Part shown: one piece after another, positions 252 to 4,576 of the stretch
How positions within the stretch are numbered: position 1 is the first letter of the stretch
Layout of the letters: the number at the start of each line of letters is the position of its first letter
Source: an uncultured Flavobacteriales bacterium
GTDB lineage: Bacteria; Bacteroidota; Bacteroidia; Flavobacteriales_D; Crocinitomicaceae
Direction: 5' to 3'
NCBI GenBank assembly: GCA_913056215.1
Contig: CAJXMN010000024.1
Location: 1 to 32,547 of the forward strand
DNA: 32,547 nucleotides
Notes under the pieces: generated by a model
Told to the model about the DNA's origin: nothing
Database searches by the model: none
What the model saw: only the letters and a program-made list of their open reading frames with translations
Position numbers and translations under genes: made by a program

Positions 252-1130
252 ATGGGACGAAAAGCCACTAGAATAGAGAAACAAATTGAAATACTCAAAA
301 ATCGTGGGATGGAACTGGACTATTCTCATGAAAAAGTCAAAGAAATTCTTTACGATATAGGCTATTACCGTTTGGGGTTTTATTGGAATCCTTTTGAGGT
401 AGATAAAGATCATAATTTCGAGTCAGGAACCAAGTTCTCTACAGCTGTAAAGTTATATTACTTAGATGTTGATTTAAGGGATTTACTTATTCGTTTTATC
501 AATAGAATTGAAATCAATTTCAGAACTAATGTGGTATACTTAGTCTCCAATAAATATAAAGATACCCCCACTTGGTTTATTAGTCCGGATGTTGTGGAAC
601 AAGAATACATTGATAATATTGACAAACATTATAATGATCGCTTTAAAAACGATAATAAACCTATCAAACTTCACCACAGGAAGTACCTTAATGATAAATA
701 CGCACCTGCTTGGAAAACATTAGAGTTCTTTACATTCGGTGCGATTCTGAAAATTTACTCATCTCTAAAGAATGAAGAAATTAAGAAAAGAATTGCTGCT
801 AAATACGATGTGATTAGTATAAAAAAATTCAAAAATTTAATCAATACAATGGTTTTTGTGCGTAATGCCTGTGCACATGGTAATGTGATTTTTGATTTAA
901 AAACTCCAAAAGGCATTTCTAGTTTACCAACATTGAACTTTCATAATGAGGATCGCCATTCATTACGCTCATCTGTACTTGTTATTTTGTATTTCTTAGA
1001 TCATATTTCTGAAAACAGGAAAGTAGAACTAGCGGAAGAGTTTGATGGTTTAATTAAGAAAAACTGTTCGGATCCAGCTCTAAAAGAGATTATTGAAACT
1101 AAAATGGGTTGTGTTTTACAAGAAGATTAA
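252..1130 (+). CDS. abiF: Abi_2 / AbiD-AbiF family abortive infection protein (HEPN-type)
   Basis: A 292-residue protein with the Abi_2 layout: N-terminal IEKQIEILKNRGM, then a YYRLGFYWNPFE block (about 38-49), an RDLLIRFINRIEINFRT helix (about 76-92), and RNACAH at 204-209. The last is an R-X4-H motif of the HEPN ribonuclease superfamily. Known family: AbiD/AbiF proteins act in phage exclusion, and AbiF proteins have been linked to a small RNA and proposed as relatives of the ancestor of Cas13. Inferred role: an RNA-cleaving toxin that stops growth on phage infection. The ATG at 252 fits the family N-terminus. The gene lies alone among housekeeping genes and is A+T rich, which suggests acquisition. 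The symbol marks the family; AbiD naming is equally possible. Confidence 0.85.
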   Translation: MGRKATRIEKQIEILKNRGMELDYSHEKVKEILYDIGYYRLGFYWNPFEVDKDHNFESGTKFSTAVKLYYLDVDLRDLLIRFINRIEINFRTNVVYLVSNKYKDTPTWFISPDVVEQEYIDNIDKHYNDRFKNDNKPIKLHHRKYLNDKYAPAWKTLEFFTFGAILKIYSSLKNEEIKKRIAAKYDVISIKKFKNLINTMVFVRNACAHGNVIFDLKTPKGISSLPTLNFHNEDRHSLRSSVLVILYFLDHISENRKVELAEEFDGLIKKNCSDPALKEIIETKMGCVLQED

Positions 1131-1169
1131 AAATGTTCTTTAAAATTATTTTTAAAAATAATATTATCA

Positions 1170-1177
1170 TATATTTG
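1170..1177 (+). promoter_or_regulatory. -7 promoter element of a putative small RNA
   Basis: TATATTTG matches the Bacteroidota -7 consensus TAnnTTTG exactly. It lies 39 bases after the abiF stop and just ahead of a stem-loop and a terminator, with no protein-coding frame following. A clear -33 TTG element is not visible, but the upstream stretch is very A+T rich. Confidence 0.5.
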
Positions 1178-1182
1178 TACCA

Positions 1183-1264
1183 ATAGTGCCCCATTAAACA
1201 TCACGCTTTAATGCTGCACTCTAAAATAAGAAATATAAAACCTTGGCTCGCCCAAGGTTTTTTT
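1183..1264 (+). ncRNA. Putative structured small RNA downstream of abiF (candidate AbiF partner RNA)
   Basis: A roughly 80-nt non-coding unit is bounded by an exact -7 element at 1170-1177 and a terminator at 1237-1264. Its 5' part folds as AGTGC (1185-1189) with GCACT (1216-1220), a 2x2 internal loop, then CATTAAA (1192-1198) with TTTAATG (1207-1213), closing an 8-nt loop: 12 pairs in total. The 3' part is the terminator hairpin. Known: AbiF genes are associated with small structured RNAs in a toxin-antitoxin-like arrangement. Inferred: this RNA guards or guides the AbiF-like protein. The alternative is that the stem-loop is only the 3' untranslated region of abiF. The start position is estimated from the promoter. 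Confidence 0.5.
1237..1264 (+). terminator. Rho-independent terminator, possibly bidirectional
   Basis: A perfect 10-bp stem AAAACCTTGG / CCAAGGTTTT with a 5-nt loop is followed by a run of T (1258-1264). On the other strand the same hairpin is followed by TTTTATATTTC, so it could also end the leftward ftsH transcript coming from 1456. Confidence 0.85.
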
Positions 1265-1455: not shown

Positions 1456-3381
1456 CTATTTGTCTGAATCCTCTTCCTCATCAAACTTCCTTTCCCCCAA
1501 AACTTTCACAAAATCTTCCTTATACAACACCTCTTTCTCCATGAGTGATTGAGCAATAGTTTCAACGTCCTCGCGGTGTTTCTCGAGCAATTCCTTTGTG
1601 CGTTGGTAGCACTCTTCAATGAACGCACGCGCCTCGACATCAATCATATTGGCCGTTTCTTCGGAATACGGTTGACGCATGCTGTACTCGTTTTGGAGGT
1701 CTTTGTAAGAGAACGGACCTACCTTTTTATTCATACCGTAAAGCGCAATGATCGCATAAGCAATCTGTGTCGTTTTTTCCAGATCATTTTGAGCCCCTGA
1801 TGAAACATCGCCGAAAACAAGCTCCTCCATGACACGTCCACCTAATGTCATACAGACCGTATCTCTTAATTCATTTAGCGTGTATAGGTTTTGCTCTTTT
1901 GGTAAATACTGTGCAAATCCGAGTGCAGCTTCTCCACGCGGAATGATGGAAACTTTTAGAAGCGGATGAGCGTGTTCGAGTAACCAGCCCGTGACAGCAT
2001 GACCTGTTTCGTGATAGGCAATAATCTTCTTCTCTTTCGGGCTGATGAGCTTGTTCTTTTTCTCCATCCCTCCGATAACGCGATCAATTGCAGATATGAA
2101 GTCTTCCATCTCCACCTTGTCTTTCTTTTTGCGCGCAGCATGTAGTGCAGCTTCATTACAGATGTTTGCAATTTCTGCTCCTGCAAATCCTGGCGTTTGT
2201 TTCGCAAGATCTTCAGGATCGATATCATTCCCAAGGGTTAATTTTTTTAAGTGTACTTTAAAAATCTCTTCCCGACCATGAATATCTGGTTTGTCCACAT
2301 GGATTTGACGGTCGAAACGACCTGGTCGAAGTAGGGCTTTATCCAATAAATCAGGTCGATTAGTCGCTGCAAGAATAATTACTGTTTTATCACTGCTGAA
2401 CCCATCCATTTCTACCAGTAATTGATTCAGCGTATTTTCGCGTTCGTCATTTGTCTGCGTATTTGATCGTCCTCTCGATCGCCCAATCGCCTCGATCTCA
2501 TCAATAAAAATGATACAAGGTGCTTTTTCACGTCCCTTTTTAAAGAGATCTCTAACTCTAGCCGCTCCGACTCCTACAAACATTTCCACAAAATCAGAAC
2601 CAGATATACTGAAAAAAGGAACTCCTGACTCACCAGCCATCGCTTTGGCCATTAATGTTTTTCCTGTTCCTGGAGGGCCGGTCAGTAACACGCCTTTAGG
2701 TATTTTAGCACCTAGTTTTTTGTATTTTTCATCGTGCTTGAGAAAATCAACGACCTCCATGACTTCTTCTTTGGCCTCATCCAATCCAGCAACTTGGTCG
2801 AAATCGACATCAACTTTTTCATCTCCCTCAAACAGCTTGGCTTTCGATTTGCCGGTATTGGCGAATGGATTTCCACCGCCACCTCCACCCATACGGGATG
2901 ACATTCTGCGCATGATGAACATCCAGATCGCTACGATAATGATGATCGGTAACACCCACGAAAGAATATTGGAAAACCAATCCTCTCGTTTTTCAAAACG
3001 TGGACTCACCTTAGCGCTCTCCTCTAGATTTTGTTGTGCTTCTTCTAACTGCTGCTGAAAATATTCTACCGACCCAATAGTGAATGTGAATTGCGGTCCT
3101 TTTTTGTTGTCCGAAACCTCGCTATGCTCATTACTCTGCAATGCTGCAGGTGTTAGATAGACTTCTACATTCTTCTCGTTTACGACGATGATTTTACTGA
3201 CTTCTCCATCTTGTAGTAGCTCAGTTTTAAATTCTTTCCAATCGATTTCTTTGGGTTCACCAGTATTTGAAAAGTAAGTGACCCCTACGAAGACCAACAT
3301 GATGGCTGCGTAGATCCAAAAAATATTGAATTTGGGAAATTTACCTTGTCCTGATGGAAACTTTTTCTTTTTGTCAGTCAT
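1456..3381 (-). CDS. ftsH: ATP-dependent zinc metalloprotease FtsH
   Basis: A 641-residue membrane-anchored AAA+ protease that degrades unassembled membrane proteins and regulatory factors. Visible parts in order: a Lys-rich N-terminus, membrane helix 1 (about 19-37), a periplasmic domain, membrane helix 2 (about 139-157), a Gly-rich linker (165-170), Walker A GPPGTGKT (235-242), pore motif FVG (268-270), Walker B IIFIDE (290-295), the second region of homology ending LLRPGRFDR, and the zinc site HETGH (457-461). Length is normal for the family. The C-terminus is acidic. An exact -7 element on the same strand at 3404-3411 places the transcript start shortly before the ATG. The gene is an ordinary housekeeping gene and all catalytic residues are present. 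Confidence 0.98.
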
Positions 3382-3403
3382 AGCGATAGAAATGAATCAA
3401 CTG

Positions 3404-3411
3404 CAAATCTA
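3404..3411 (-). promoter_or_regulatory. -7 promoter element of ftsH
   Basis: Read on the minus strand this is TAGATTTG, an exact TAnnTTTG match, 22 bases upstream of the ftsH ATG. It shows that ftsH can be transcribed independently of trhO upstream. Confidence 0.55.
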
Positions 3412-3487
3412 TGTATAATTTGACGGATGAAAACTGATGAATATTTGTTTTTGCCATGAATTGATAAATGGTGGGGGAAATAAATAT

Positions 3488-4576
3488 TTATTCCTTCTCC
3501 ATCTTAATCGGATCAACAATATTAATCGGTTTCTTATTGTTTGATTTGTAAAACAGTTTTTCCGATCGCCCTTTTTTGAAGATCTTATTGCTGTTATTCT
3601 TTCCTTTGCGCAACTTTCGTTGTTCTTCTTCAGGAAGGTGGATGACATCTTGGCAATCATCTGAACAGCACCCCTCCAACTTTTCGCTGCACTTTTCACA
3701 TTGAATAAATAGCAAGTGACAGGCATCATTCACACAGTTGGTATGGGTATCGCAAGGTTCGCCGCATTGGTGGCATACTGAAATGATATCATCTGAAATA
3801 CGTTCGCCGCGCCGCTCGTCAAAAACAAAGTTCTTTCCAATAAACTTGTTTTCTATGCCTTTATTTTCGCAGTCTCTAGCGTATTTGATAATACCACCTT
3901 CGAGCTGATGTACTTTTTTGAATCCACGATGTTTATACCATGCTGAAGCTTTCTCACAGCGAATTCCCCCGGTGCAGTACATGACAATTTTCTTGTCCTC
4001 ATTTCCTTTTAAAACTTCATCTTCGATCAGGGGCAAGGACTCTCTGAAAGTATCTACATCCGGAGTGATAGCGCCTTTAAAGTGACCAACCTCGGTTTCG
4101 TAATGATTTCGCATGTCGATCAACAAGGTGTTCGGATCATCGACAATTTGGTTAAATTCTTCTGCTTTTAAATGTTTTCCTTTGTTGGTAACATCAAATG
4201 TATTGTCGTTCAATCCATCGGCAAGAATCTTCTTGCGCACTTTAATTTTTAATTTCAAAAACGGGAATTCTGCTTCCGACTCATCTACGGCGAGATTTAA
4301 ACGGATACCATTCAGAAAAGAGATCTCATAAAGTTCTTTTTTGAATTGTTCAAATTTGTCAGCGGGAACACCGATCTGGGCATTGATACCTTCGGTAGCA
4401 ACATACGTTCTTCCAACGATTCCTAGTTTGTTCCACATTTGAAACAAGTGATCTCTGAAAACTTGAGGATTAGGTATTGAAGCGTATTGATAAAAAGAAA
4501 CCGTCACGAAGTTCGTTCCGCGCTCTTTCAACTTCTCCACCAACTCCTCTTTACTCAATGTATTCCACAGTTGCAT
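3488..4576 (-). CDS. trhO: tRNA uridine(34) hydroxylase, rhodanese-type (TrhO / UPF0176)
   Basis: A 362-residue protein of the TrhO (YceA) family, which hydroxylates U34 in the anticodon of certain tRNAs using oxygen. An N-terminal acylphosphatase-like domain begins VSFYQYASIPNPQVFRDHLF (26-45), followed by a central rhodanese domain with active-site loop CTGGIRC starting at Cys201. A Cys-rich tail (about 265-315) with several CxxC pairs probably binds zinc, and the C-terminus is strongly basic, fitting tRNA binding. E. coli TrhO has about 350 residues, so this is full length. It reads in the same direction as ftsH with a 106-base spacer. An exact -7 element lies at 4607-4614. The assignment is firm; the substrate tRNAs are inferred from the family. 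Confidence 0.93.
   Translation of the reverse strand: MQLWNTLSKEELVEKLKERGTNFVTVSFYQYASIPNPQVFRDHLFQMWNKLGIVGRTYVATEGINAQIGVPADKFEQFKKELYEISFLNGIRLNLAVDESEAEFPFLKLKIKVRKKILADGLNDNTFDVTNKGKHLKAEEFNQIVDDPNTLLIDMRNHYETEVGHFKGAITPDVDTFRESLPLIEDEVLKGNEDKKIVMYCTGGIRCEKASAWYKHRGFKKVHQLEGGIIKYARDCENKGIENKFIGKNFVFDERRGERISDDIISVCHQCGEPCDTHTNCVNDACHLLFIQCEKCSEKLEGCCSDDCQDVIHLPEEEQRKLRKGKNNSNKIFKKGRSEKLFYKSNNKKPINIVDPIKMEKE

Follow-up and report, generated by a model that had tools for sequence, protein, structure and literature searches.

Known AbiF systems and the locus in the window

AbiF-type HEPN toxins with RNA partners have been proposed as the root of Cas13. In Clostridioides difficile phages, the RNA RCd22 neutralises AbiFCd by direct binding (PMC12373285). 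PbAbiF from Prevotellaceae is described as a single-strand RNase that is restrained by its non-coding RNA, AbiFr (PMC12737573), and one RNA per monomer was reported for the complex (PDB 8VZ6; PMC12737573). The known abiF RNA is represented in Rfam by RF03085. A looser parallel is with the type III toxin-antitoxin systems (ToxIN, CptIN, and TenpIN), in which an RNA antitoxin counters an RNase toxin. ToxIN has an array of antitoxin repeats upstream of the toxin gene (PMC12373285 describes part of this as well).

The window (the whole stretch of 32,547 nt that was analysed, from an uncultured Flavobacteriales bacterium) contains an Abi_2 gene and, downstream of it, a putative small RNA unit. The features are:

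252-1130, plus strand: Abi_2 (AbiF/AbiD-type HEPN) gene, 292 amino acids, probable RNase toxin
1170-1177, plus strand: TATATTTG, a TAnnTTTG match, the Bacteroidota -7-type promoter-like element of the RNA
1184-1264, plus strand: small RNA unit of about 80 nt (5' end inferred from the promoter-like element)
1185-1220, plus strand: hairpin of 5 + 7 = 12 pairs
1185-1189, plus strand: 5' strand of helix P1, AGUGC, pairing with 1216-1220
1192-1198, plus strand: 5' strand of helix P2, CATTAAA, pairing with 1207-1213
1207-1213, plus strand: 3' strand of P2, TTTAATG
1216-1220, plus strand: 3' strand of P1, GCACU
Between P1 and P2: internal loop CC/CT
1221-1226, plus strand: conserved single-stranded CUAAAA, 3' of the hairpin
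1237-1264, plus strand: intrinsic terminator, with a 10-pair stem at 1237-1261 and a T run to 1264

(TAnnTTTG is the promoter consensus of Bacteroidota.) The original prediction had reported the TAnnTTTG element, the 12-pair stem-loop, and the terminator, with no coding frame, beside an AbiF-like HEPN gene with an R-X4-H motif, and all of this held. No open reading frame of at least 60 amino acids overlaps 1131-1264. This strand folds at -27.1 kcal/mol, versus -13.75 +/- 3.02 for dinucleotide shuffles (z = -4.42; 0 of 200 were as low). When only the interior of the hairpin was shuffled, the energy was as low in 1 of 100 trials. Our model of this RNA, R1, matches the window at 1183-1228 with 51.3 bits (the window is among the sequences that R1 was built from), and this is the single strong R1 match in its genome. 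A weak second place (L098, E = 0.593) was not accepted as real. The RNA in the window lacks an upstream TTG element that is present in most of its relatives.

The protein matches the Pfam domain Abi_2 (PF07751, E = 3.8e-43) and AbiD in PADLOC (E = 9.5e-50); no NCBIfam family matched it. It is the only Abi_2 match in its genome. Arg204 and His209, which form the R-X4-H motif, are invariant across 37 aligned sequences, as are Asn205 and Cys207. In AbiFCd, the matching arginine and histidine are required for toxicity (PMC12373285). An AlphaFold2 model of the protein (pLDDT 93.9) aligns to PbAbiF (8vz6_A) with Z = 26.1 and 2.5 Å over 278 residues, at 24% identity. The next structural row is CasRx at Z = 7.0, which is a weak fold similarity. 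In Foldseek, PbAbiF (8vz6) was the sole fold match at E <= 0.001. (The absence of a ToxN-family fold from the Foldseek match list does not exclude that family.) By its domain, its R-X4-H motif, and its modelled fold, the protein qualifies as an AbiF/AbiD (Abi_2) HEPN protein; toxicity and phage resistance are inferred.

An RNA conserved beside Abi_2 genes across Bacteroidota

We scanned genome contigs with the window's own protein and obtained 67 homologous loci, all from Bacteroidota by title, whose proteins are 38-63% identical. The RNA lies beside the gene in 66 of them: downstream in 62, as the original prediction had it, and upstream in 4. (The contig of the remaining locus, L011, stops 84 nt past the stop codon, so the presence of the RNA could not be assessed.) In L045, L062, and L065 the RNA is upstream of the gene on the same strand, with R1 scores of 39 bits for L045, 19.9 bits for L065, and only 10.5 bits for L062, which was recognised by eye. 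In L061, whose gene is cut by the contig end, a copy lies about 310 nt upstream (22.5 bits). Each locus has one strong R1 match, mostly downstream, and no antitoxin repeat array. R1 was searched on both strands, and its matches put the RNA on the gene's own strand. As a side observation, the Abi_2 frame of L063 (2501-3315) is broken, yet the adjoining RNA scores 38.5 bits. Also, in L030 a SAM-II riboswitch (3567-3626) lies directly 3' of the RNA.

The 62 loci with a downstream RNA share the core AGUGC-CC-P2-loop-P2'-GCACU-nUAAAA. (The core coordinates of L017, L044, and L050 were placed by hand.) These RNAs and the one in the window make up a set of 63. Exact TAnnTTTG is found within 40 nt upstream of 60 of the 63, and it lies 5-12 nt before the stem in 58; L018, L048, and L063 have near-matches by eye. 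TTG is found 22-23 nt above the start of TAnnTTTG in 46 of 58 RNAs. A script found a terminator after 53 of the 63 RNAs, and the other 10 have, by eye, a strong hairpin and a T run a few bases off. In the UAAAA strand, the first two As are invariant and the last two are at least 90% conserved across the 63 alignment rows.

As the query of the 67-locus scan was the window's own protein, only a sample of 395 genomes and the viral scans described below could test linkage beyond this clade. Across the 395 genomes, which were drawn from the phylum, R1 found 10 places in 9 genomes. Six of these places adjoin Abi_2 genes, and those 6 genomes are the six with full-length Abi_2 matches of 137-151 bits (48 genomes had any Abi_2 match). 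Two more places, L093 and L097, are orphan copies with no Abi_2 gene near. They appear decayed: neither has an exact TAnnTTTG, and their stems are incompletely formed in the predicted fold. (Both copies are at 1501-1546 on the minus strand, near frames that we named by eye as resolvase-like and transposase-like.) Two other places were judged by eye to be false: the one in L094 is inside a coding frame, and the one in L096 is a simple palindrome. Among 100 genomes of the window's own order, the RNA was found only in the window's genome, so its distribution is patchy. Overall, these RNAs constitute a conserved family whose members stay next to the Abi_2 gene across Bacteroidota.

We then examined whether the stem covaries beside other abi genes, which was one check that the original prediction had proposed, and it does. 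In a MAFFT alignment of the 63 cores (59 distinct sequences), the covariation score was 0.372, versus 0.138 +/- 0.014 for 500 shuffles (0 of 500 reached it) and at most 0.117 with the partners slid. Paired cells made up 85.1%, versus 70.7 +/- 1.1 in the shuffles. All six tested pairs of P2 change on both sides, and only 74.6% of P2 cells are paired in this alignment. P1 hardly varies: 97.6% of its cells are paired across the 59 distinct sequences and three of its pairs are constant. The number of pairs that changed on both sides was not above the shuffles (7 versus 6.3; 210 of 500 shuffles), and the number of further pair types separated only weakly from them (28 versus 24.1; 11 of 500). When sequences were folded singly, all 63 formed at least 4 pairs of P1 and an inner helix of at least 3 pairs. 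The share of interior shuffles that were as stable had a median of 8% and was 5% or lower for only 22 of the 63 RNAs, so single sequences alone are weak evidence. Covariation and pairing relative to shuffles show that the RNA is selected for structure.

Comparison with the known abiF RNA

The original prediction had guessed at a form that was not yet catalogued, and this guess fits. No family in Rfam 15 matches the RNA at gathering in the window or in 60 of the 67 loci, and RF03085 has no match in positions 1-1500 of the window at E <= 10. (Near-matches of other families in 1-1500, such as OrzO-P at 29.1 bits, rimP, and MicC, are far below their gathering scores and were taken as chance.) The RF03085 model did find its positive control, L068, at 37.6 bits. 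However, it also missed 13 PbAbiF-like loci (L072-L084) at E <= 0.5, so a miss by Rfam means little alone. Searches with RF03085 of 40 and of 148 genomes from the phylum gave no match, but the controls were silent too, so absence was not shown.

The layouts are more informative. RF03085 has 6 base pairs, a 1-nt 5' bulge, 3-4 base pairs, a loop, and a 3' bulge of 5-7 nt (in phage phiC2: CCCGCC-A-AGC-loop-GCU-CAAAUA-GGCGGG). In contrast, this RNA has 5 base pairs, an internal loop of about 2 by 2-3 nt, 6-7 base pairs, and then UAAAA. We built another model, R2, from 14 Bacteroidota RNAs with the RF03085 layout, and searched it over 92 sources at E <= 1. R2 matched 18 places in PbAbiF-like loci at E <= 1.1e-8 (most of them by construction) and L141 weakly (E = 0.031). 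In the 67 sources with this RNA's type it matched no RNA, with one stray far from the gene (L037, E = 0.13). R2 is also narrow: it missed L083, L111, L117, L118, L123, L127, and L068. Conversely, R1 has no match in L068-L084 at E <= 5, nor in 30 further sources at E <= 1. By its layout and by both models, this RNA is distinct from RF03085.

Like this RNA, RF03085 and RCd22 are small hairpin RNAs that adjoin an Abi_2 gene and have a terminator. But RCd22 is upstream, is co-transcribed with the gene, and has two motifs (PMC12373285), whereas this RNA has a single motif, is mostly downstream, and has its own promoter-like element. PbAbiF shares the protein fold (Z = 26.1) and the R-X4-H motif, but with 24% identity it belongs to a separate clade. 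The type III systems resemble this module in the inferred pairing of an RNA antitoxin with an RNase toxin; unlike them, this module has a predicted HEPN/PbAbiF fold, no repeat array, and its own promoter-like element. We found no description of the RNA in the literature that we searched. A caveat is that this search did not extend to a 2025 Cell paper on AbiF or to the 2017 definition of RF03085, so priority is uncertain.

The two kinds of RNA correspond to different groups of proteins. The proteins with this RNA, 38 of the 65 in our tree, group together with support of 99/99 (they come from 36 of the 67 loci, plus the window and L085; no frame was found for L103, which was left out, as were L079, L082, and L084). 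PbAbiF (8VZ6) falls in the other group. There, a layout finder identified an upstream RNA with the RF03085 layout in 17 of the 22 PbAbiF-like rows with flanks. Such an RNA is visible by eye in L073, L111, and L118, and not in L121 or L127. The row closest to PbAbiF in the tree is L123, whose upstream RNA has this layout. Within the group with our RNA, the earliest branches are L062 and L065, followed by L045. The RNA is upstream in all three, so the simplest reading is an upstream start and one later move downstream. This order is tentative, as the fork above L045 lacks strong support (95/60) and the root is a midpoint root.

As side observations, many Bacteroidota PbAbiF-like genes (among L072-L084 and L099-L123) have upstream RNAs of the RF03085 layout. 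The Rfam abiF family needs a wider model, and R2 is a start. Of 38 plasmid records, two were inspected: L140 and L141 encode proteins nearer to the PbAbiF-like clade, and neither record has an R1 match at E <= 1. The Chryseobacterium plasmid L141 has two different genes in a row that are annotated as Abi family (1495-2400 and 2838-3518).

The proposed module, viral copies, and alternative explanations

What could this RNA do? It is likely that the RNA and Abi_2 form a toxin-antitoxin-like module in which the RNA is a type III-like antitoxin that keeps the HEPN RNase inactive, but this is inferred and there are no bench data. In this view, the Abi_2 HEPN protein would be an RNase toxin. The RNA would be transcribed from its own promoter and would fold into a hairpin of 12 pairs interrupted by an internal loop, with the UAAAA strand after it. 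By analogy with RCd22 and PbAbiFr, it would bind the Abi_2 protein so that the HEPN site stays inactive. Phage infection would lower the level of the short RNA, which would free the toxin. We infer that the RNA acts in trans, given a promoter-like element of its own and its occurrence both upstream and downstream of the gene; a switch of sides without loss of linkage argues for this.

The comparisons above show that the RNA is conserved and covaries, that it has promoter-like elements and terminators, and that it is linked to one protein clade whichever side of the gene it lies on; the protein has a predicted fold and a conserved active site. Transcription, binding, inhibition, phage-triggered release, and the RNA substrate are inferred. 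The partner-RNA interpretation of the original prediction is thus supported, with transcription, toxicity, and neutralisation still inferred. Several points count against the antitoxin reading. In the viral loci L134 and L136 (identical over the compared stretch), the Abi_2 frame is intact, belongs to this clade, and shares 52% identity with that of L054, yet no RNA was found nearby. This seems to be a toxin gene bereft of its partner RNA. (TATATTTG occurs downstream of the stop at 2388 in these loci, but there is no RNA.) The P2 pairing of 74.6% and the number of pairs changed on both sides, which was not above the shuffles, also count against it. In addition, the RNA's layout differs from those of the RNAs with demonstrated action, the RNA in the window lacks the TTG, and there are no expression, binding, or toxicity data for this clade. 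A second RNA partner with a different structure, linked to a protein clade of its own and able to lie before or after the gene, shows how freely the RNA half evolves. The Bacteroidota RNA and Abi_2 are a testable pair.

A protein scan of viral contigs gave 11 loci, with the RNA in 7 (downstream in L129-L132 and upstream in L133, L135, and L139). Among the 11, L137 and L138 are cut short, L134 and L136 are the two without the RNA, several are near-copies, and L131 is from the same record as L147, which came from a separate search. That search, five pattern scans that were independent of the protein, gave 30 viral loci (L142-L171), of which we kept 9: L142, L144, L146, L147, L149, L150, L151, L162, and L171. 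The other 21 had at most 26.4 bits with R1, or nothing, and no convincing unit by eye. (L167 was dropped at 26.4 bits although L162 was kept at 27.2 bits; what decided for L162 was its exact TAnnTTTG and its terminator with a T run.) L147 and L171 are RNA units beside Abi_2. Where aligned, L149 is identical to L142 and L150 to L146.

This leaves RNA units without Abi_2 in five distinct viral records, so some copies stand alone: L142 (47.9 bits), L144 (48.6 bits), L146 (33.6 bits), L151 (46.1 bits), and L162 (27.2 bits). Abi_2 was not found in the records behind them, but the records may be fragments (that of L151 is only 5.8 kb). Given the size of the collection, scores such as 33.6 and 27.2 bits could be chance; the promoter-like element and terminator make chance less likely. 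R1 searches over five whole phage records (four crAss-like and one unclassified) gave a best E of 0.479, and no copy was seen. The DNA neighbours of the viral copies in the phage collection showed nothing that bears on the question.

Two minor observations concern these records. Near the stand-alone RNA of L162 is a gene with a SocA/Panacea antitoxin domain (1055-1606; PF13274, E = 9.2e-25). The record of L142 (L184) has a second, divergent unit at 318-362, which scores 25.9 bits and has TACCTTTG and a stem resembling a terminator; a frame near it is possibly host DNA.

Why would phages carry the RNA without the gene? One explanation is that these copies are remnants of former modules. We see this as no better than an even bet, though at least as likely as a decoy role, and it is compatible with the antitoxin reading. 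In its favour, the bacterial orphans L093 and L097 look decayed. Among the viral copies, exact TAnnTTTG is missing from L142 and L151, the predicted fold of L144 lacks the hairpin and its terminator is not clear, and the internal loop is gone from L146. Against it, the hairpin is present in the predicted folds of L142, L146, L151, and L162, and exact TAnnTTTG precedes L144, L146, and L162. Furthermore, the gap that holds L151 is 178 nt long and separates a Crassvirus capsid gene (PF23898, E = 1.1e-70; major head protein in PHROG) from the next gene, followed by a tRNA-Trp.

A bolder reading is that Bacteroidota phages, including one crAss-like phage, carry the stand-alone RNA as a decoy antitoxin that disarms the Abi_2 HEPN RNase of the host. 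There is a precedent: pseudo-ToxI of phage PhiTE is a phage-borne mimic of an RNA antitoxin (PMC3475682). But here we have sequence evidence only, the toxin family is different, and the viral copies are single units rather than repeats. The decoy reading is weakened because L142 and L151 are without an exact TAnnTTTG and the predicted fold of L144 is not the expected one, and on balance we lean against it. If it were true, this would be an RNA-based anti-defence comparable with pseudo-ToxI and spread over unrelated phages, and the stand-alone viral copies would make the arms race around these RNAs directly testable.

For the RNA itself, we considered three alternatives to an antitoxin. First, it might be a guide or activator that the HEPN protein requires, as Cas13 requires its crRNA. 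AbiF has been described as ancestral to Cas13 (PMC12737573), and the model has the weak similarity to CasRx (Z = 7.0). However, the variable parts of the RNA are very short and no spacer-like region was seen, both AbiF RNAs that have been studied are reported to inhibit (PMC12373285, PMC12737573), and a Z of 7 in a helical protein may merely reflect a common arrangement. So, we consider a guide unlikely.

Second, a small RNA with a promoter-like element and a terminator that adjoins a gene might be an antisense (type I-like) regulator of the abi mRNA. This is very unlikely: the RNA is on the same strand as the gene, and its mean duplex energy was -21.16 kcal/mol with its own mRNA versus -21.04 kcal/mol with those of other loci (31 of 63 were better with their own; p = 0.89; only -60 to +150 of the abi mRNA was covered).

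Third, the abi mRNA might simply end in this structure, which would then be no more than its 3' end or terminator region, perhaps an RNA processed from the 3' UTR. The downstream position in 62 of 67 loci would allow this, but it is also very unlikely: 4 of the 67 loci have the RNA upstream, some viral records have it alone, and the promoter-like element before nearly all of the relatives' RNAs (TAnnTTTG in 60 of 63, with TTG at the 22-23 nt spacing in 46 of 58) speaks against read-through from the gene as the only source of the transcript.
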